Position numbers and translations under genes: made by a program. DNA of 23,257 nt, from positions 1-23,257 of the IMG/VR virus record IMGVR_UViG_3300012354_000069, one strand, 5' to 3'. Under the pieces are notes generated by a model, which was not told the DNA's origin, searched no databases, and saw only the letters and a list, made by a program, of their open reading frames with translations. Source of the DNA: a virus. Positions 1 through 21,352 of the stretch are shown here, piece after piece (position 1 is the stretch's first letter; every line of letters begins with the position of its first letter).

Positions 1-3000
1 AGATCATGATGGGCGCCGTCGCTCCGTCACTGCCCACGACTCCGCCCACGGCGAAACCGGGCACGTTCGCTTGCTGCGCTCTCGTCAGCACTCGAGTGCC
101 TGGCCGCGCCATCGTCAGAATTGAGTCGTAGCCGCGATCGACCCCGGGGACGGTGATGCCGAATGCGCCGCCTGGCGCAACCATCATCTCGCCCGGACGT
201 ACTCTGATGGCGGTGAAGTCGCTACCGCGAAACGGCACGAATCCACCACCTGCAAAGGTCGGAACAAATGCCGAAGTAAACTGCTTCGCTGTGTCGCCGG
301 CCTTAGCCGCGGCCTGAATGCGCGGCCAGTAGAAAGGCTCAATGTCGTTCTGCCATTGAAGCGTCGCGTTGCGTTTGGTTTTAGAATCCTTCAGCGTGGC
401 AACGTTCGCGAAATACTGGTTCTTGATGTCATTGAATTGCGAAGTCGCTTCCGCTAATCCAATGTCACCGTGACTGGCGTGGGCCAGCAACACCTGCAGG
501 TTATGGACCGCGTCCGTCGACCATTGATCGCGTAGCTTTTCCTCAGCACGCCGGCGCGCATTGCGGCTAAGAATGAAAGCGCCGACAAGTAGCAATGGCG
601 CAGCGATCGCCGCCACTGGCCCCAATACCGCCAGCAGTGGGCCCAGCGAACTGGCGAGAGCGCCGCCGGAAGCGAAGATTGCGGCGCCGAGACCAACAGC
701 AGTCCCGAGCAGCCCGCCGCCAATCCCTCCGAGGATTCGCCCGAGACCCGATTGACCACCCAAACCAACTCCGAGCGTCAAACCCAATATTGGGGCAAGC
801 GGCCCCAGGGCGCCGGCGATCCCCGCGCCACTCAACAGTGAAGCGCCGCCGGCGCCGAGCCCTCCGCCACCACCCGCGATATTCTGAAGCGCGCCAAGAA
901 TCCCGGCTCCGGACTGAGCCCCGGCCAGTGACGCCGGAGCAGTTATTCCGCCGCCGAGGCCTCCGATTCCAGGAATCACCCCGCCTAAGCCCGCAAGGTT
1001 CACCAGAGAAAACGCGCCAGTGTTTTGGCCGCCCGTTCCGCCAACATAAGCACGCCCGCCGCTTCCTCCAGCAAACCCACCAGTGAGAAATTGACCGAGG
1101 CCTCCTCCTGTGCCACCGCTGCCACCACCGAAGAGATTGCTTAGAAAGCCGAAGAAACCGCCGCGGCTGCCACCGCCTCCACCGCCAAACGTCGGAGTTC
1201 CGCCCGGCTGCGATCCAATTCCCAAGAGCAGTTGCAGAATTTTCGACAGCGCCAAATGTGTCAGGTCTTTGAGGAACTGGCCAAGAATCTGGCCGGCGGT
1301 ACCCAAGCGTTTTGTCATTCGATCGATTGCGCTGTCGACGCCGTCGAACCACGACTTCACCGAATTAGTGCGCACATCTTCGAAGGTTTGCTGCAGCGTC
1401 TTCTGCTCGCTCAAAAAATGAATCAACCCGTCATCGAGCCGAGCAAAGTCGACGTCCGTTTGGTGCGCCAGTTTCACCAGATCCGCGGCGCGCTGTTCCG
1501 CTGCCTTGGCACTGGCGCCGGCAACTTCTTCTTCGGCTTTGACCCAAGCAAGTTGATATCGTAGCGCCGAGAGCTCGCCCGCATGCGCAATGTTGTATTC
1601 GGACTGCGCGATCTGAGTGTTCAAATCAAGAACTGCATGAAGCTGATCGAGGTCAAACTTTTCTTTCAACGACTGCTGGAAGGGAGCCGAGCCGAAAATG
1701 GCGTTCACGCCTCCGAGAGCGACTATTGCAGCAATTTCCGAGCGCACACCGGCCATCGCGCTATAGAAGTTCTGTAAATAGCTGGTCTTCGCGATTAACA
1801 CATCCTGCTGATTGCCAGCAGCCAATCGGTCAAGCTGGTCCAGCGTTAGCTGCAGCTCGACAAAGCCGGACTGAGCGAGCTTACGACGCTCTTCTGCTGC
1901 GCGATGCCGGGCCAAATCGAGCGCGAGTTCCGTGTCGATCAGGTCATGACCGAGCCTTTCCTCGATGCGCCGAATCTCTTCGGTGGCGTCATTCGTCGCC
2001 TTCAATCGGGATGTTTGCTCTTCCTGGAAGATACGCTTGCGCAGACCACTCTCACCGTAGACTTCCACGGTTAACTGCCGCTGGCGTTCGCGCTCCGCAT
2101 CAAAGGATCGCACCGCTGTAAGCGTCGCCTCTGCGGTGGCCTGCTGAAAAAGAATGGCCTGTTCTTGAATAGATTTAAGGAGGCCAGGTGATTCTGTTTT
2201 GGTCCCGAGCGTAGGTTTACCGGCGCGGGCTGCCAGCAGTTCTTCGATGGCTAACGTCTTCGCGCGCGCATCGACCACCTGCACCGAAATATCCAGTTCC
2301 GCCCGCCTCAGCGCTACCAGAGTTTGCCATGCGGCTGTGTGCTTTTCATCGAATTCGAGGCCAATCAACCGCGCTTCGTTCGTCTGATACTCGAGTACGC
2401 GCAGCTTGGCCGCATTGTCGCGGTCCTGTTCGGAAATTTTTAGAATTTCCTTCCGGGTATTGTCTTCGCGCTGTAGGTCGCGAAGCGCTGCCTGACGGGC
2501 TTCTTTTTCGACCGGAATGGCCGCGCCAATTTCGAAATTCAGCTTGTGACGAATCGTGAATATCTCCTCGTATTCCTTTTTCGTCGCTTCGAGATCAGAT
2601 TTTTCAACCTGCAAATCAAAGAGCCGGCCGCCGCCACGCTTCAGCGCCTCAACCTGGGGCCGCAGCCTGGTGAGTTCCTCAATGAGCTGCTGGATCGCCG
2701 TTTTTTGGATTTTTGGCAAGATTGCCTCTTCGAGACCTTTCTTGATTTTCTCGAATTGGTTCAAACGGTTGGTCAAATCGGTCAGCTCTTTGTCTGACCG
2801 GAGTTGTTTCAGTCCCTCTTTCACCGAGGCCGCTTGCGCGGCCACGGCCGCAATCCGACCTTCGATCGCCGCTTTTGCCGTCTTATCTTCGCCCTGAGCC
2901 AAGTCATCAAATGCCTGCTTCAGCACATCGACCTGTTTTGCTGCATCAGCGGCTTTGGGCGTGAACGAATCGAATATCTCGCCGAGTTTTTTGGTCTGGT

Positions 3001-4660
3001 CCGCAGTGAATCCGGATGCTTTGAAGAGCGCCAGCATCTGGTCACGATTCAGACCAAGGGCCTCAGCATTAACGACCAGTTTGGCCTGGTTGTCGGTTAG
3101 CTGCTTGCTGTAATCTCCGATCTCTCCGTTCAGCTTGTTAATGTTGTCGCTGATGTACCCGATATTGGCTCGCGCTTCCGACTGCGTAAAAACCGTCCCT
3201 AAACCCGCTTGGTACTCACGGATTTTGGCCTGGTAGCCGCCAATTAGGTTTTGATTGAAAGAGATTTTTTCCTGAAGGTCTAAAATGCCGGCGCCGACCG
3301 TTCGCAGACTCGCCTCGAGTCCGCCTTTATTGATTTCGACATTCCGAGCGATTTCTGCGGTGAGAGCTGCGATCTTTTGCTTTTCAGTTTCGAGAGCTTC
3401 GATGTAAGTGCGGGTTTGCGGATCCAGTTGCCTTAAGACTTCATTTAGTTTTTGGTGCCGCTCAGTCGAGCCTTCCTGCGCTGAAGCGACTTCGTTTGCG
3501 GCCGTGGCCAACTTTTTGGTCGACTCCCAGGCGCCAGCCATCGATTTGATTTGTTCCTCAGTAACGGCATTTGCTTTTTCTGCCGCGCTGGCTTCGTTAG
3601 CGAAGGCGACCACGATGGCCCCAATGGCGATCAACGCGGCGGCCCATGCGCCAACCGCCACCGCAGTAGTCGCGGCGGCGCCCTGAATGAGGCCAGCCGT
3701 CCCAAACATCACTTTACCAAGCAAGGAAACCGACTGAATCACGGCACCGACGCCGCCAAGCAAACCAGGAACCAGTTGTGTATTAAGAGCGACGAAAGAG
3801 AGCGTCAGAATTGCAACAGCCGAAGTTACTGCAACGAAAGTGCCCGGATATCGCGCGATTATGATCAACAGCTCGGACGCGACCTTTACCCCCAGACCGA
3901 ATGCCCCCTGGAACAACCCGCCAATTGACTCTTTGGCGTCGTCGGCCAGCCGCTGCATTGATAACAACTGTTTATAAGCCGAACCCATGGCCGCATCGTA
4001 AGCGCCTTCCAATCGCACTCCGCTCTCAATCACTGCATTAAGGAGAATTTGCTGGCGCTGAGTTTCGGTGAGCGCGTCTTTATTTACGCGCATGGCCTTG
4101 GCTCCTTTTGTAAGAGCCTCCTCAACCGAAATGAATACACCGGCCGACCTGAAGGCTTCGGTTCTGCCAATCTGGATTGCGTTGATGAGGTCTCGAAACG
4201 TTTCGGAAGAATTCTTGTTGGCTATAACAGCGGCATTCTTGGCGACCGTAGCCAGTTGTTCGGCTTTGGCGACATCGAGATTTAGCCCGACCATTTGCGA
4301 GAGGACCTGCACGGCATCCTGGCGCGAAATATTGGCCGCAGTGAGGGCCTTAATCTCTCGCTCTATCGTGTCAGAAGAAATGCCGTTCGTGCGCGCGAGC
4401 TGCTGCAAGGCGATGTCCAACTCGCCGCTGCGACCGGCAAAGAGCGTCGTATCAACGATAGCCTCCTTAATCCAGCGCAAACCTTCTCGAATAGCTCCAA
4501 CAAACAGTTCAGCGTCCACGATGGTGTGGACTAAACCTCCGTGGGCACTTCTCGCCGCAGAATCCAGGGTGCTAAAAGAGTCGGCGAAACCTCTTATTTC
4601 GCTCGCGCCTTCGCGTGCGCCCTGGAGCTGAATGACTATTGGAACAAATCGTGCCGCCAT
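1..4660 (-). CDS. Phage tail tape-measure protein (3' end outside window)
   Basis: The frame is open from ATG at 4660 to the left edge, about 1,553 residues without a stop; the C-terminus is missing. Tape-measure proteins set tail length, are packed inside the tail tube and help DNA entry. Visible order: N-terminal helical region; hydrophobic block at about residues 260-355 (one stretch reads IIIARYPGTFVAVTSAVAIL); long Lys/Glu/Gln-rich helical and coiled-coil region, about 360-1100; Gly-rich segment, about 1150-1290; second hydrophobic stretch near 1340-1365 (LLAVLGPVAAIAAPLLLVGA); then a globular end. Great length, membrane-like segments amid coiled coil, and position just after the G/T chaperone genes all fit. 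The start ATG has only a weak ribosome site. The Gly-rich part could be a flexible hinge (inference). Confidence 0.9.
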   Translation of the reverse strand, partial: MAARFVPIVIQLQGAREGASEIRGFADSFSTLDSAARSAHGGLVHTIVDAELFVGAIREGLRWIKEAIVDTTLFAGRSGELDIALQQLARTNGISSDTIEREIKALTAANISRQDAVQVLSQMVGLNLDVAKAEQLATVAKNAAVIANKNSSETFRDLINAIQIGRTEAFRSAGVFISVEEALTKGAKAMRVNKDALTETQRQQILLNAVIESGVRLEGAYDAAMGSAYKQLLSMQRLADDAKESIGGLFQGAFGLGVKVASELLIIIARYPGTFVAVTSAVAILTLSFVALNTQLVPGLLGGVGAVIQSVSLLGKVMFGTAGLIQGAAATTAVAVGAWAAALIAIGAIVVAFANEASAAEKANAVTEEQIKSMAGAWESTKKLATAANEVASAQEGSTERHQKLNEVLRQLDPQTRTYIEALETEKQKIAALTAEIARNVEINKGGLEASLRTVGAGILDLQEKISFNQNLIGGYQAKIREYQAGLGTVFTQSEARANIGYISDNINKLNGEIGDYSKQLTDNQAKLVVNAEALGLNRDQMLALFKASGFTADQTKKLGEIFDSFTPKAADAAKQVDVLKQAFDDLAQGEDKTAKAAIEGRIAAVAAQAASVKEGLKQLRSDKELTDLTNRLNQFEKIKKGLEEAILPKIQKTAIQQLIEELTRLRPQVEALKRGGGRLFDLQVEKSDLEATKKEYEEIFTIRHKLNFEIGAAIPVEKEARQAALRDLQREDNTRKEILKISEQDRDNAAKLRVLEYQTNEARLIGLEFDEKHTAAWQTLVALRRAELDISVQVVDARAKTLAIEELLAARAGKPTLGTKTESPGLLKSIQEQAILFQQATAEATLTAVRSFDAERERQRQLTVEVYGESGLRKRIFQEEQTSRLKATNDATEEIRRIEERLGHDLIDTELALDLARHRAAEERRKLAQSGFVELQLTLDQLDRLAAGNQQDVLIAKTSYLQNFYSAMAGVRSEIAAIVALGGVNAIFGSAPFQQSLKEKFDLDQLHAVLDLNTQIAQSEYNIAHAGELSALRYQLAWVKAEEEVAGASAKAAEQRAADLVKLAHQTDVDFARLDDGLIHFLSEQKTLQQTFEDVRTNSVKSWFDGVDSAIDRMTKRLGTAGQILGQFLKDLTHLALSKILQLLLGIGSQPGGTPTFGGGGGGSRGGFFGFLSNLFGGGSGGTGGGLGQFLTGGFAGGSGGRAYVGGTGGQNTGAFSLVNLAGLGGVIPGIGGLGGGITAPASLAGAQSGAGILGALQNIAGGGGGLGAGGASLLSGAGIAGALGPLAPILGLTLGVGLGGQSGLGRILGGIGGGLLGTAVGLGAAIFASGGALASSLGPLLAVLGPVAAIAAPLLLVGAFILSRNARRRAEEKLRDQWSTDAVHNLQVLLAHASHGDIGLAEATSQFNDIKNQYFANVATLKDSKTKRNATLQWQNDIEPFYWPRIQAAAKAGDTAKQFTSAFVPTFAGGGFVPFRGSDFTAIRVRPGEMMVAPGGAFGITVPGVDRGYDSILTMARPGTRVLTRAQQANVPGFAVGGVVGSDGATAPIMI

Positions 4661-4674
4661 GCTAGACTCTGCCC

Positions 4675-4959
4675 ATGCTGCTCCTACTAATCTTCCTGCT
4701 GCTGCTCGTCATCGCCCTTTGGATTTTCAGAAAATGGCTGCTGTCGGCAGTTTTGCTAATAGCCAGTCCATTTGTTTTGCTGGTTCTAATCGCCAAAGGG
4801 TCCGATTTACCTCGGCCGGTTCGCCTCTCAATCGTGGTGCTTATTCTCCTCGGATTTGCATTCGCGGTTGCGAAAGCCGTGCAAAATCGACGGAAGATGT
4901 TGACCGTCGATCGCGGAATCGCCGCAAAGCAGCGGGCTCGCGAGAACGCCGCTACCTAA
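4675..4959 (+). CDS. Small membrane protein on the opposite strand, unknown function
   Basis: A 94-residue ORF fills the gap between the T stop and the tape-measure start and is the only plausible plus-strand gene. It starts MLLLLIFLLLLVIALWIF, has a second hydrophobic stretch around residues 24-40 and a third around 50-66 (LSIVVLILLGFAFAVAKAV), and ends in a basic tail. So two or three membrane spans with a charged C-terminus are predicted. Its stop overlaps the T stop by 4 bp in a convergent arrangement. No clear Shine-Dalgarno or promoter is visible upstream. No minus-strand frame of useful length covers the gap. Size and topology would suit a holin-like or other small membrane protein, but I see no family signature. 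Confidence 0.5.
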   Translation: MLLLLIFLLLLVIALWIFRKWLLSAVLLIASPFVLLVLIAKGSDLPRPVRLSIVVLILLGFAFAVAKAVQNRRKMLTVDRGIAAKQRARENAAT

Positions 4960-5369
4960 CCGCCTCTGGTTGCCACCAAGATCTCGAACATTTGCGCCGT
5001 CCGTATTTGGTGCGCACGCTCGTAACTACCGACTGTTTCATCCCAAACCATCACAAGTTGCTTTTCCAGTTCCGTCAGATCGTCGGGAAAGCCAAAGCCT
5101 GAATCACGTTCACGGACCAACTGCTCAATAACGTCGACAATTCCATCGGTTTCGAGGCCGCCCGCTACCGCAGGCGGTTCTGACCCGCTGCTTACCGCCT
5201 GCTCCTCAATGCTTACTGTCCTTTTCGGGCACGATGGGCAACGCACCGGCGAATCTTCCGCTGACGACAGATATATCTGGCATTGATCTTCTCCGGGACA
5301 ATCCTGCTCGCTTCCGACCTGATAGAGTTTTCCAACCCGATCAGCAATGGCCTGAGCGAGCTCGGCTAG
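4956..5369 (-). CDS. Tail assembly chaperone T extension, made by -1 frameshift from G
   Basis: This frame is open from the slippery site at the end of the upstream G gene to TAG at 4956-4958. Its only usual start is a GTG at 5246, which would drop the first 41 residues, so expression as a G-T fusion (about 293 + 137 residues) is the better reading. In lambda and most long-tailed phages the G/GT pair binds the tape measure and recruits tail-tube subunits; this gene lies between the tube protein and the tape measure as expected. The N-terminal part carries four cysteines (CPGEDQC then CPSC), a possible zinc site. A REP-like palindrome at 5158-5177 is translated in frame as part of EPPAVAGG. 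The C-terminal half is helical and acidic. Role is assigned by context, not by a sequence signature. Confidence 0.65.
   Translation of the reverse strand, partial: LAELAQAIADRVGKLYQVGSEQDCPGEDQCQIYLSSAEDSPVRCPSCPKRTVSIEEQAVSSGSEPPAVAGGLETDGIVDVIEQLVRERDSGFGFPDDLTELEKQLVMVWDETVGSYERAHQIRTAQMFEILVATRGG
5158..5177. repeat. REP-like palindrome inside the T frame
   Basis: Arms of 8 bp (one wobble in RNA of the minus strand) flank a TACC loop, read as GGTA on the coding strand. It is translated as PPAVAGG. The loop matches that of the hairpin at 16735-16748, which suggests related repeat families. Confidence 0.6.
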
Positions 5370-8921: not shown

Positions 8922-9406
8922 TTCGGTTTTACCTCCGGAGGTTTGGTTGATTGATTAACGACCGGCTGCGACGCCGGACGCGGAACAAATTTCAATGAAT
9001 CCAGATCAAGAATGTATTTCGTAAGATCGGCGTTTGCATGGACAGCGCTTTCACGGACCGCGTCGTTAATTTTTGACTCGTCACTCTTGATCAGTTCCTG
9101 CAGCTCCTTATAGCGCGCTTCGATGCGCTGCATTTCGAGCAGCTTTTTGTCTTCTTCGTATTGCAGGCTCCGAAGTCTCAACTGGTCTTCAGTCTTCATT
9201 GCCGGCGTGATTAACACTCCATTCGAGGGAGCAGATCCCTGCGGCACAACCATAGTCGGCGTGCCGGAAGTGTCCGCTGGTTTGGATTGCGCCCACGCAG
9301 TAAGCAGTGAGCAGTAAGCAGTGAACAGTAAAACCAAAGCGCACATCACGACCCGCGGCCATTCCCGACCTCTGACTTCTGACCTCTGATCTCTGTTTTT
9401 AGACAT
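8918..9406 (-). CDS. Secreted or periplasmic coiled-coil protein
   Basis: 162 residues from ATG 9406, which overlaps the upstream gene's stop by 8 nt; an earlier in-frame TTG (9415) is less likely. Signal peptide: N-region NRDQRSEVRGRE, core VVMCALVLLFTAYCSLLTA, cleavage AWAQ. Both parts are written by different heptamer arrays. The mature protein has a linker rich in Pro/Ser/Thr, then a charged helical stretch, about residues 75-130 (EEDKKLLEMQRIEARYKELQ), likely coiled coil, and a Pro-rich tail. No family is recognised. In context it may be a trimeric stalk or an export-coupled accessory of the fibre proteins encoded next to it; that is inference. Confidence 0.75.
   Translation of the reverse strand: MSKNRDQRSEVRGREWPRVVMCALVLLFTAYCSLLTAWAQSKPADTSGTPTMVVPQGSAPSNGVLITPAMKTEDQLRLRSLQYEEDKKLLEMQRIEARYKELQELIKSDESKINDAVRESAVHANADLTKYILDLDSLKFVPRPASQPVVNQSTKPPEVKPK
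8931..8942. promoter_or_regulatory. 12-bp palindrome over a ribosome-binding site
   Basis: ACCTCCGGAGGT is a perfect palindrome whose GGAGGT half is the Shine-Dalgarno of the gene starting at 8921. It sits at the 3' end of the upstream coding region. Self-pairing in such a short palindrome would be weak. Confidence 0.4.
9301..9328. repeat. Heptamer array encoding a signal-peptide core
   Basis: Four units alternating TAAGCAG, TGAGCAG, TAAGCAG, TGAACAG. Read on the minus strand they give LFTAYCSLLTA, the hydrophobic core of the signal peptide of the gene 8918-9406. Confidence 0.92.
9363..9397. repeat. Heptamer array encoding a signal-peptide N-region
   Basis: Five diverged units (TCCCGAC, CTCTGAC, TTCTGAC, CTCTGAT, CTCTGTT). 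On the minus strand they encode NRDQRSEVRGRE, the N-region of the protein 8918-9406. Confidence 0.88.
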
Positions 9407-18487: not shown

Positions 18488-18801
18488 CCGATTTCCTCGG
18501 CCTCAAGCACTTCATCGCGCGGAACCTGCTTGCTTTCATCCCGTTCCATGATTTCTTTCGCAGTGGCGACTTCCACTGCCACCGGCTGCAATGGCTGACC
18601 GAAAGTTGAAACCCAAAGATAAACATCGGCGCCTTCGGCGATTTTCTTTCGGTCCTCATCGGACAATTCCCAACGAGTCAATACCTGGTGGTCGGGGGCC
18701 ACGAGTTTCACCGCCGGCAGTCGCATGTACTCCGGCTGATTCTCCGCGAATACTGTTTCGGCTACGTTATAGCCCGGCAATACTGGCGATGCTGGTTTCA
18801 T
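18484..18801 (-). CDS. Small conserved head-region protein (105 aa)
   Basis: 105 residues; ATG 18801 overlaps the head-morphogenesis stop and its own TGA overlaps the protease ATG (both ATGA), so the three are probably translationally coupled. It contains a compact domain with LPAVKLVAPDHQVLTRWELSD, then EDRKKIAEGADVYLWVSTFG and PLQPVAVEV; the C-terminus is acidic. I recall small proteins with the LTRW-LSDEER-IAEGADIYL pattern in phage and prophage head regions, but no function. It may be a head accessory protein. Confidence 0.75.
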   Translation of the reverse strand: MKPASPVLPGYNVAETVFAENQPEYMRLPAVKLVAPDHQVLTRWELSDEDRKKIAEGADVYLWVSTFGQPLQPVAVEVATAKEIMERDESKQVPRDEVLEAEEIG

Positions 18802-19802
18802 TTCTGCGTCTCGTCGTACTCTGCCTGCTCGTGTCCGCTCTTCGGCTCGCCTGCTCCCGGTACCACGCCTGCTACGCGCGTGCGGCAGTTAGGGTGGTAC
18901 GGCGGAAAGCCGCGACCCTCGGCCACGAGCGAATTGTCAACAACTCCGTTCGTGATTCGATCCTTGACGTACTCAACCGGGTCCTGCGCGTACGCACGGC
19001 CCAAGGCGCTCTTGTAAATCTCCAGCGCGTATTCGCCCGGATCCATCTTCGACAATCGGTCGACAGCTTCGACCATTGCGCCCACGCGAATATATTTGCC
19101 ATCCAAATGGCGGCAGATTTCAGTGGTACGGTTATCAATAACTGCAACGATCTTCGCGAGCTTAATTGTCGAGCTCTCACCGAGCTGGTGAATGTAAGCG
19201 AAGTTGCGAATCCGCTGAACGCTCGACCGAATGATCGTCTTGACGCCGTAATCATTGACCCGATCAAGCTTGCCGCCGGCTGCGCGCCGAAACGCTTCAA
19301 TCGATTCGGTCGTCTCACGTAAAGCCGCGCTGCCCTGCTCGAGATAAGTTTCGCGAAAGAACTTCCAGAGTTCGTCGCGCCGGTTATCGACAAACGAGCT
19401 GAAGTACCAGCCATCGAGATCGTTGAAGAAATTGACCGCGCGGGTGTCCGCGGAGCCGAAGCGCAGTTTCGGGACGGGTCCGCTGCCAAAGACTGAGGTG
19501 TCGCGCAATCGGTAGAAGCCGTAAATGTCCTTCGTGGTCCGTTTGACGATCGCTTCAGCTCGCGCCGACGTGAACGAACCTTTGTAAGCCGTTTTGACTT
19601 CCTCAATGATTGCATCGGCAAAAACGTCGGCAGAAGAAAAGTCAGCGGTATCAGCATTGCCGAGAAAGCGTCGAATCCGCTCCAGCGCAACTGCTCGAGC
19701 TTCGCCGGCGATTGGATCGACAAGCTGAACGTACCTGGCAATGAATCGGTCGAGTAACGCATTGATTTCTTCTTCACTGAGTTTCTTCAGTCCTACGCTG
19801 CT
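18798..19802 (-). CDS. Mu-F/SPP1 gp7-like head morphogenesis protein, fused to portal by -1 frameshift
   Basis: The frame runs from the portal gene's poly-A tract to TGA at 18798: 334 residues beginning SSVGLKKLSEEEINALLDRF. The first ATG, GTG or TTG is TTG 19508, 294 nt in, which would remove about a hundred well-formed helical residues. The C-terminal part shows the MuF domain: IRNFAYIHQLGESSTI, then VIDNRTTEICRHLDGK and the ending PPYHPNCRTRVAG, with the conserved Cys/His residues. MuF proteins are minor head proteins injected or used in head assembly, usually encoded right after the portal. Here the reading frame, the slippery A AAA AAA G site and the lack of a start argue for synthesis as a portal-MuF fusion. 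Alternatives: a CTG/ATT start, or one missing A in the assembly. Confidence 0.75.
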   Translation of the reverse strand, partial: SSVGLKKLSEEEINALLDRFIARYVQLVDPIAGEARAVALERIRRFLGNADTADFSSADVFADAIIEEVKTAYKGSFTSARAEAIVKRTTKDIYGFYRLRDTSVFGSGPVPKLRFGSADTRAVNFFNDLDGWYFSSFVDNRRDELWKFFRETYLEQGSAALRETTESIEAFRRAAGGKLDRVNDYGVKTIIRSSVQRIRNFAYIHQLGESSTIKLAKIVAVIDNRTTEICRHLDGKYIRVGAMVEAVDRLSKMDPGEYALEIYKSALGRAYAQDPVEYVKDRITNGVVDNSLVAEGRGFPPYHPNCRTRVAGVVPGAGEPKSGHEQAEYDETQK

Positions 19803-21352
19803 TTTTTTTTGAAATCGATAACCCTGCCGTCTACGTCCTGATGACTATCTGCTGATTCGTCCGCTCCAACCGGCGTCGAAGCGATTTCGATCCTGGAGGG
19901 TGCAAACCGATACCGCTGCGACTGCCGGTCGAAGCGGAACGTGGCCGAAAATGACGGGCTCTTAGCCCGGAGACCCGTTCCAGCCACACCTTGCGCTGCC
20001 ACATTCAGCAGCGCCGGATCGAAAGCTTTCTCGTAACCCAGCTCCTGGGCAACCTGATCAGGCGACGTGATTCCTTTCACGCCGCGGTCAATAGTCATCG
20101 TCTGCTCAATCTGTCGCGCCTCGGCCGCTTGCAAATCATTTCGTGACTTAATGTGGTTGAAGGCGATTGAAACGTCCGCTTCAATGCCGGCCAAGGCCAG
20201 ATCCAGGCGATAGGTTTGCTCCTGGCGCCGCTTCGCCAATCGCTGAACACTCTCCGCCTGAGAAACGAGCATGTGGTAGACGACGTCGGCAAAGGTTTCA
20301 GTGCTGGTGTAATTGCGCCCGTGGGCGAAGGCCATCGAGCCCATGCCCGAGAACACCTGCTCTTCAACCATCTCGAAAATATCGGAAGCGCCGCGCGCAT
20401 CGGAAACGACATTGGCGTGATCGACCTTCTGATCGTTGAAAGTAACCAGGAGCCCTTTGTTGAAATTCGAGTCGAGAACCTGCCGAACGTCCGACAGATA
20501 CTTCTTTGCTGCTGCTTCGTATTCGTCGGCTGTTTGGCCAACCTTCTTCGGCGGCTTTGTTAACGCCACCGAGACCAGGCCAAGAATGCCGAGCTTTCGC
20601 ACGATCCACTTGATGTTATCCATCGCATCTTTCTGTGGACCGAGCAGAATATCGACGGCGGCAGACGCCGGCGGTTTGGCGTAGGGTGAATTCTCGATCG
20701 TCTGGAGCGCGTAATAGTGGTAGGTCAATGGATTCAACTCAATCAATCCGATTGCGCCCTTAGCTCTTTGCACCTTCTGCTGGCCCAGCAGCGTGAAAGC
20801 CATCTGCATCGGCAGGTATTGCCCATTCTCATAACGGAACCGAATCTGGTCGACGGGTACAAGTACCGTTTCTTCCACGCGCTTGGCGTTGAGATCGACC
20901 ACGTCCTCGCTCGACAACGCGCCAAAGCAGGAAATCTGCCCCATGTAGGCGTTCATCAATCCATCGACGCCGCAACCGTTCCGATAAATTCGCTGGGCTG
21001 CATCGTTCAACCGCGCCAGCACGGCTTCAGCCTGGCTTTGGTCTTTGGTGTCGACGGTAATCATGTGGCCGGCATTCGCCAGAGCTACATGGTTGGCAAT
21101 GAATTGAGAAAGATCGGGATTTCCAAGCCACAACCGTTTCAGATCGCGAAGCAATTGCAGATCGAATGGCGGCGCAACATAGCCGAGGCCCGGCATCAAC
21201 CCGAGCCCGCCGCCAGGCGAAGTCTCGATCGACGATCGACCTTCCGGTGGAAAGGCAGATGCCGGCGGCAAGGCGACGGACGGTGAAGGCTCGAAACTGA
21301 TTCCGAACCATCGCTCCCACCAGGGCATTTTTTGTTTCTGCGTTCTGCTCAC
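19793..21352 (-). CDS. Portal protein
   Basis: 519 residues if GTG 21352 is used; ATG 21328 (MPWWERWFG) is the likely alternative, and neither has a good ribosome site. The dodecameric portal forms the head vertex through which DNA is packed and leaves. Supporting patterns: FDLQLLRDLKRLWLGNPDLS after a flexible Pro-rich N-terminus; GCGVDGLMNAYMGQISCFGA (about residue 140-160), VPVDQIRFRYENGQYLPMQM with the following beta wing; a long helix with KKYLSDVRQVLDSNFNKGLL; and MGSMAFAHGRNYTSTETFAD near the stem. Next to it lie the terminase and MuF genes, as in SPP1- and Mu-like heads. It ends VIDFKKKAA on a slippery A tract. The start overlaps a degenerate heptamer array. Confidence 0.85.
   Translation of the reverse strand: MSRTQKQKMPWWERWFGISFEPSPSVALPPASAFPPEGRSSIETSPGGGLGLMPGLGYVAPPFDLQLLRDLKRLWLGNPDLSQFIANHVALANAGHMITVDTKDQSQAEAVLARLNDAAQRIYRNGCGVDGLMNAYMGQISCFGALSSEDVVDLNAKRVEETVLVPVDQIRFRYENGQYLPMQMAFTLLGQQKVQRAKGAIGLIELNPLTYHYYALQTIENSPYAKPPASAAVDILLGPQKDAMDNIKWIVRKLGILGLVSVALTKPPKKVGQTADEYEAAAKKYLSDVRQVLDSNFNKGLLVTFNDQKVDHANVVSDARGASDIFEMVEEQVFSGMGSMAFAHGRNYTSTETFADVVYHMLVSQAESVQRLAKRRQEQTYRLDLALAGIEADVSIAFNHIKSRNDLQAAEARQIEQTMTIDRGVKGITSPDQVAQELGYEKAFDPALLNVAAQGVAGTGLRAKSPSFSATFRFDRQSQRYRFAPSRIEIASTPVGADESADSHQDVDGRVIDFKKKAA
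19802..19810 (-). promoter_or_regulatory. Slippery nine-A tract at the portal end (-1 frameshift or transcript slippage)
   Basis: Portal codons TTC AAA AAA AAA GCA GCG TAG contain an in-phase A AAA AAA G heptamer. After a -1 shift reading continues AGC AGC GTA GGA CTG in the head-morphogenesis frame. A weak ACTGA/TCAGT hairpin lies a few nt downstream. Nine A residues are also long enough for RNA polymerase slippage. Confidence 0.65.

Follow-up and report, generated by a model that had tools for sequence, protein, structure and literature searches.

Organization of the portal-MuF junction

The DNA analysed in this study, referred to below as the window, is an IMG/VR record of 23,257 bp representing a linear fragment. 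Its minus strand carries a portal gene and, immediately downstream, a gene for a MuF (head morphogenesis) protein. The two open reading frames overlap in different frames, and the second of them has no ATG, GTG or TTG start of its own. The features of the junction are as follows:

19793..21352, minus strand: portal gene, 519 codons (519 aa), GTG start and TAG stop; the free portal protein would be its default product
19802..19810, minus strand (T9 on the plus strand): A9 tract, the putative slippage site, read as AAA AAA AAA in the portal frame
19793..19801, minus strand: early stop of the unshifted frame, GCA GCG TAG, directly 3' of A9
18798..19844, minus strand: MuF (head morphogenesis) open frame in the -1 phase, with its stop at 18798-18800
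19511..19801, minus strand: N-terminal MuF region devoid of start codons, 97 codons without ATG, GTG or TTG, predicted to be helical and conserved among relatives

On the minus strand the portal gene ends with GTT ATC GAT TTC AAA AAA AAA GCA GCG TAG. As a previous examination of the letters alone (the sequence-only reading) had pointed out, A AAA AAA G lies in phase within this end, and the X XXY YYZ rule for slippery heptamers is satisfied in the window. The run at 19802-19810 is also the sole homopolymer of at least seven residues, of any base, in the whole 23,257 bp. The MuF frame is limited upstream by a TAG at 19845-19847 and shares 49 nt with the portal ORF. It is indeed open in the -1 phase through the tract and, in agreement with the same reading, offers no ATG, GTG or TTG for 294 nt downstream, the first being the TTG at 19508. 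Beyond A9, translation would meet a stop after 2 codons in the 0 frame and after 8 codons in the +1 frame. A change to the -1 frame would join 517 residues of the portal to 334 residues of MuF, the latter part beginning with AGC at 19802; the resulting 851 aa, recomputed here, match the sizes proposed before (519 for the portal, about 851 for the fusion).

The portal protein matches phrog_3753 (E=4.5e-85), and its structural model (pLDDT 65) resembles solved portals in the PDB, the best being that of HFTV1 (5e-9). Residues 486-519 are predicted to be disordered, and thus the junction would sit within a flexible tail. The product of the second frame matches phrog_241, a head morphogenesis family, at 3.1e-14, and PF04233 with E=1.5e-6, which is 0.3 bit below the gathering score. 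Comparison of its model (pLDDT 77) with a viral structure library gave matches to minor capsid proteins. No match under E=1 was obtained when this model was compared with the PDB by Foldseek, and a profile sequence search of the PDB with MuF gave no meaningful match.

The residues encoded ahead of any start codon had been said to look like real protein, and the comparison with relatives bears this out. Over the first 66 MuF-frame codons past the portal stop, twelve close prophage-like sequences differ 768, 358 and 1683 times at codon positions 1, 2 and 3, respectively, and relatives align with the window straight from the KKK junction (T/SEEEID-ILD-FI-KY). Judged from this pattern of differences and from the conservation that extends from the tract onward, the MuF frame upstream of any start codon is coding.

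Survey of relatives and conservation of the A tract

Scans of viral contigs with single proteins were nearly empty, yielding one portal relative (L002) and none for MuF; alignment-based scans were therefore needed. Applied to viral contigs and bacterial genomes, these gathered about 250 loci, many of them overlapping, from which clustering at 85% portal identity left 116 non-redundant representatives. Among the portal relatives nearest to the window are loci of Acidobacteria MAGs. A cultured phage with such an arrangement was not found, since tblastn against cultured phages gave no match for MuF and portal relatives at only 20-26%.

The sequence-only reading had left undecided whether relatives would keep the A tract with two frames or possess one fused ORF, and both states occur. 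MuF lies in the -1 frame in 37 of the 116 representatives and forms a single ORF with the portal in 52; in 5 it is in the +1 frame, and the remaining 22 have no detectable MuF. The longest A-run in the overlap of the 37 loci of the -1 type is A10 in 16, A9 in 18, A7 in two and A5 in one. Hence, 34 of these 37 have A9 or A10 within a short overlap, as do 20 of 23 when clustering is performed at 60% identity. Both A7 relatives (L067 and L070) are exactly in the A AAA AAG phase. The locus with A5 (L194, near position 5254) is the sole -1 relative without a tract, and a TTG, perhaps a true separate start of MuF, overlaps its portal stop.

Outside the junction, only seven other A9 or T9 runs were found in 36 of the -1 loci (346 kb), and A-runs of at least nine occur at 2 of 280 other long-ORF ends in -1 loci, which served as a control. 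In the 22 representatives without MuF there is no A-run longer than six near the portal stop. Portal genes with neither a detectable MuF directly downstream nor a long A tract are seen in L033, L074 and L083, placed near the window on the tree, as well as in L003, L004 and L036.

Among loci in which a tract accompanies split frames, 34 of 35 are of the -1 type. The exception, L138 (near position 4889), belongs to a prophage-like group whose other members have A10; its own tract is A9, which changes the phase of MuF from -1 to +1. Either this difference in length is genuine or the assembly is at fault here. A later scan revealed nine more contigs with the -1 arrangement and A9 or A10, close to the window by their MuF, and one fused locus without a tract (L231).

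Transcriptional versus ribosomal slippage as possible mechanisms

That a programmed frame change of one kind or the other joins the portal and MuF genes appears to us nearly certain. The -1 joining at the A tract, as put forward by the sequence-only reading, is strongly supported by its conservation in distant relatives; the heptamer emphasized there, however, is probably not the operative signal, as a tract length of at least nine is conserved instead. The codon preceding the tract ends in A in all 27 representatives with the AAA AAA AAG/C phase (13 of 13 at 60% identity), against an expected share of 19% of codons ending in A in the same portals; GTA, ATA, CTA and TTA typically precede AAA AAA AAG, in GC-rich genomes. 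Since the base that precedes the three lysine codons is not part of the heptamer A AAA AAG, the invariable presence of an A there indicates selection for length beyond the heptamer.

Early closure of both frames other than that of MuF is, like the tract, the selection on its length, the frames, the lack of a start and the conservation, a property read directly from the genes. The +1 frame closes early among the -1 loci (geometric mean of 6.5 versus 18.9 codons, p=0.0004). Eight fused representatives hold A9 or A10 in or near the linker. Of these, seven were inspected (L038, L048, L050, L066, L142, L145 and L195), and stops occur within 0-7 codons in both of their shifted frames (geometric mean of 2.0 versus 7.6 codons; none of 5000 permutations was as low). 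Judging by these frames, slippage in the fused tract loci would release free portal, that is, it would act with inverted polarity. The permutation and product statistics correct only partly for relatedness, and they should be regarded as strong rather than literal. Neither an upstream SD-like site nor a downstream structure or hairpin was enriched relative to matched positions in 24 loci.

Slippage commonly sets in at nine A residues, and conservation of A9 has been regarded as a sign of purpose (PMC1088944). In tssM, slippage occurs in both polarities, with yields of 20-25% and 15-25%, without SD or structure (PMC4256274). As far as can be judged without expression data, the conservation of length beyond the heptamer, the early closure of the third frame, the inverted polarity and the absence of enriched stimulators favour transcriptional slippage over ribosomal -1 frameshifting, though the latter is not excluded.

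Programmed -1 frameshifting of ribosomes on an unaltered mRNA, at A AAA AAA G in the window and at A AAA AAG/C in many relatives, remains possible, if doubtful. Every tract holds an in-phase heptamer, and phage structural genes commonly use ribosomal recoding (PMC5009743). The phase of the tract varies, a point against such a mechanism, yet the A AAA AAG/C phase, on which bacterial ribosomes slip, is found at the end of 29 of 36 tracts, and L067 and L070 have only A7 in that very phase. It may thus be that ribosomal slippage acts alone or additionally. On the other hand, seven A residues would suffice for it but the relatives retain nine or ten, and in 27 of 27 cases the additional A falls outside the heptamer; closing the +1 frame early is unneeded for a shift to -1 only; and the stimulators that could have been expected are not enriched.

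It is highly improbable that MuF is instead translated without any fusion, from its own start other than ATG, GTG or TTG (CTG at 19790, or ATC or ATT), by coupling to the portal stop. The CTG, the earliest near-start in the MuF frame, does lie just past this stop, and in L194 a TTG overlaps the portal stop. Nevertheless, no start of MuF is conserved across the -1 relatives, in which the distance from the tract to the nearest ATG, GTG or TTG has a median of 35 codons; such a start would also leave the conservation of A9 and A10 without a reason, and in relatives the fusion is encoded as one ORF. The least credible possibility is that the split arose artificially, during sequencing or assembly, or that a permanently fused gene has mutated recently: homopolymers are error-prone, the A count in the window comes without read-level data, many relatives have a continuous ORF and L138 bears A9 amid an A10 group, but the same split recurs in 37 non-redundant relatives, which stem from numerous independent assemblies, and in one direction at 34 of 35 tract loci, where errors would run both ways, and even a true A10 here would constitute a slippage tract of the inverted type.

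Relationships among the loci and an RF2-like signal

The window falls into a clade of 13 rows, ten of which have the -1 arrangement with A9 or A10 and three lack MuF, while the surrounding background is largely fused. According to the sequence-only reading, raw reads with ten A residues (one continuous ORF), or homologues with an independent ATG start of MuF, would have spoken against the frameshift. Neither was encountered in the assembled sequences: homologues from the window's own clade show no consistent independent start, and a continuous ORF with ten A residues is not typical of them. A second clade, greater in diversity and with spirochaete-associated loci among its members, contains a mix of -1 and inverted tract states. 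Several inverted-tract loci nest among -1 members (for example L050 with L031 and L049, and L195 with L027 and L051), and on a quick tree with many open forks the tract/no-tract state requires nine changes.

In the second tract clade, the MuF proteins exceed that of the window by about 100 aa (L029 6353-7606, L031 2149-3381, L035 6329-7681, L132 4944-6260). Pfam searches with these proteins gave only MuF and chance-level matches, none of which names the extra C-terminal part. As MuF proteins elsewhere bear C-terminal toxin domains, this part may be a cargo domain.

Four relatives with MuF in the +1 frame (L080, L085, L086 and L088) form one supported clade. Their portal genes contain an in-frame AGG TAT CTT followed by TGA, TAG, TGT or CGG, and the conserved sequence of MuF starts directly after CTT. 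This layout is that of the +1 shift signal of RF2 (prfB). The signal, GAGGTATCTT, is located at 0-based offsets 3870 in L080, 6562 in L085, 6451 in L086 and 6406 in L088. The gene, however, is different, and L086 and L088 have no stop at the shift site; the signal is absent from the window. The arrangement shows, at the level of predicted reading frames, that the portal-MuF join is reached by a different signal as well.

One could propose that attachment of MuF is an interchangeable trait, and to us the arguments for and against this appear evenly balanced. Lineages of this portal family would switch among four modes of expression: a permanent fusion, transcriptional slippage in which free portal is the default, slippage in which the fusion is, and an RF2-like +1 ribosomal shift. 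A single gene start would then provide a mixed ring with a set dose of MuF, together with any C-terminal domain, at the vertex.

Proposed mechanism

The explanation which we prefer, and consider fairly likely despite the lack of RNA or protein data, is that slippage at A9, most likely transcriptional, yields both free portal and a portal-MuF fusion. RNA polymerase would add or drop A residues on the tract, and the mRNA pool would carry all three downstream frames, one reading MuF and the other two terminating within a few codons. Because expression would slip near the 3' end of the portal gene, one start would give two proteins: the free portal of 519 aa and a portal of 851 aa bearing MuF on its flexible C-terminal tail. 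Fusion subunits may then join free ones in the portal ring, placing MuF at the portal vertex. The occurrence of slippage, its transcriptional nature, the ratio of products and their role in the virion are all inferred.

It is plausible, though untested, that only a few copies of MuF are present at the vertex. Slippage of about 10-20% may be considered for the dose of MuF in a twelve-subunit ring, a value which comes from arithmetic on precedents and not from any measurement. The low-copy idea is weakened by the permanent fusions: as many relatives are permanently fused, full occupancy is tolerated there, and the family as a whole does not depend on a low ratio. In addition to the ribosome-compatible phase of most tracts and the two A7 relatives, our proposal has to contend with L194, which is -1 without a tract, and with the 52 permanently fused representatives, according to which a mixed ratio is not essential.

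Comparison with known systems

SPP1 gp7 is a separate protein with its own start, unlike MuF of the window, which would be reached through the portal frame. Common to both is the position of MuF directly downstream of the portal and the PF04233 domain of the MuF superfamily (PMC5576092). Permanent portal-MuF fusions have been described in Microbacterium phages of clusters EA3, EA5, EA8 and EB (PMC7302621). These give one polypeptide, as predicted here, but from one gene, with MuF on every portal and with no reported frame change.

Thermus thermophilus dnaX (A9), IS elements and tssM of Citrobacter and Yersinia share with the window a run of at least nine A residues near the end of an ORF and a second product made by a frame change (PMC1088944, PMC4256274). 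They also operate without stimulators and in both polarities, giving a longer or a shorter product. They are, however, other genes, whereas the present case concerns the portal of a phage and the head gene that follows it, and slippage has not been measured in it. Recoded structural genes of phages comprise the tail chaperones G/GT, the capsid extensions of phages A2 and T3/T7, and cases in Listeria phage PSA (PMC5009743). One start likewise gives two structural products there, one of which carries a C-terminal extension, but the recoding is ribosomal, affects tail or major capsid genes, and follows other rules of tract and phase.

In the open-access papers searched, most subscription papers being outside this coverage, we found no previous description of a recoded portal-MuF junction. 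If our proposal is true, this would be the first such case in those open-access papers, and a natural route to a mixed portal ring, with twelve-fold symmetry broken by gene expression. One protein family would allow several recoding solutions to be compared with permanent fusion, and the copy number of MuF would become testable. Another consequence would be that in many phages, among them those of Acidobacteria and spirochaetes but also of other hosts, MuF is overlooked or cut short by gene callers.

Other observations

A candidate tail chaperone frameshift near position 9400 of the window was not supported: a GGGTTTG heptamer is present, but the ORF downstream of it occupies the other phase and has its own TTG. 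In L003 (MT835790.1), the large terminase ORF at 2244-4757 encodes 838 aa, compared with 509 aa in the close relative L036, and the inserted block resembles an intein.
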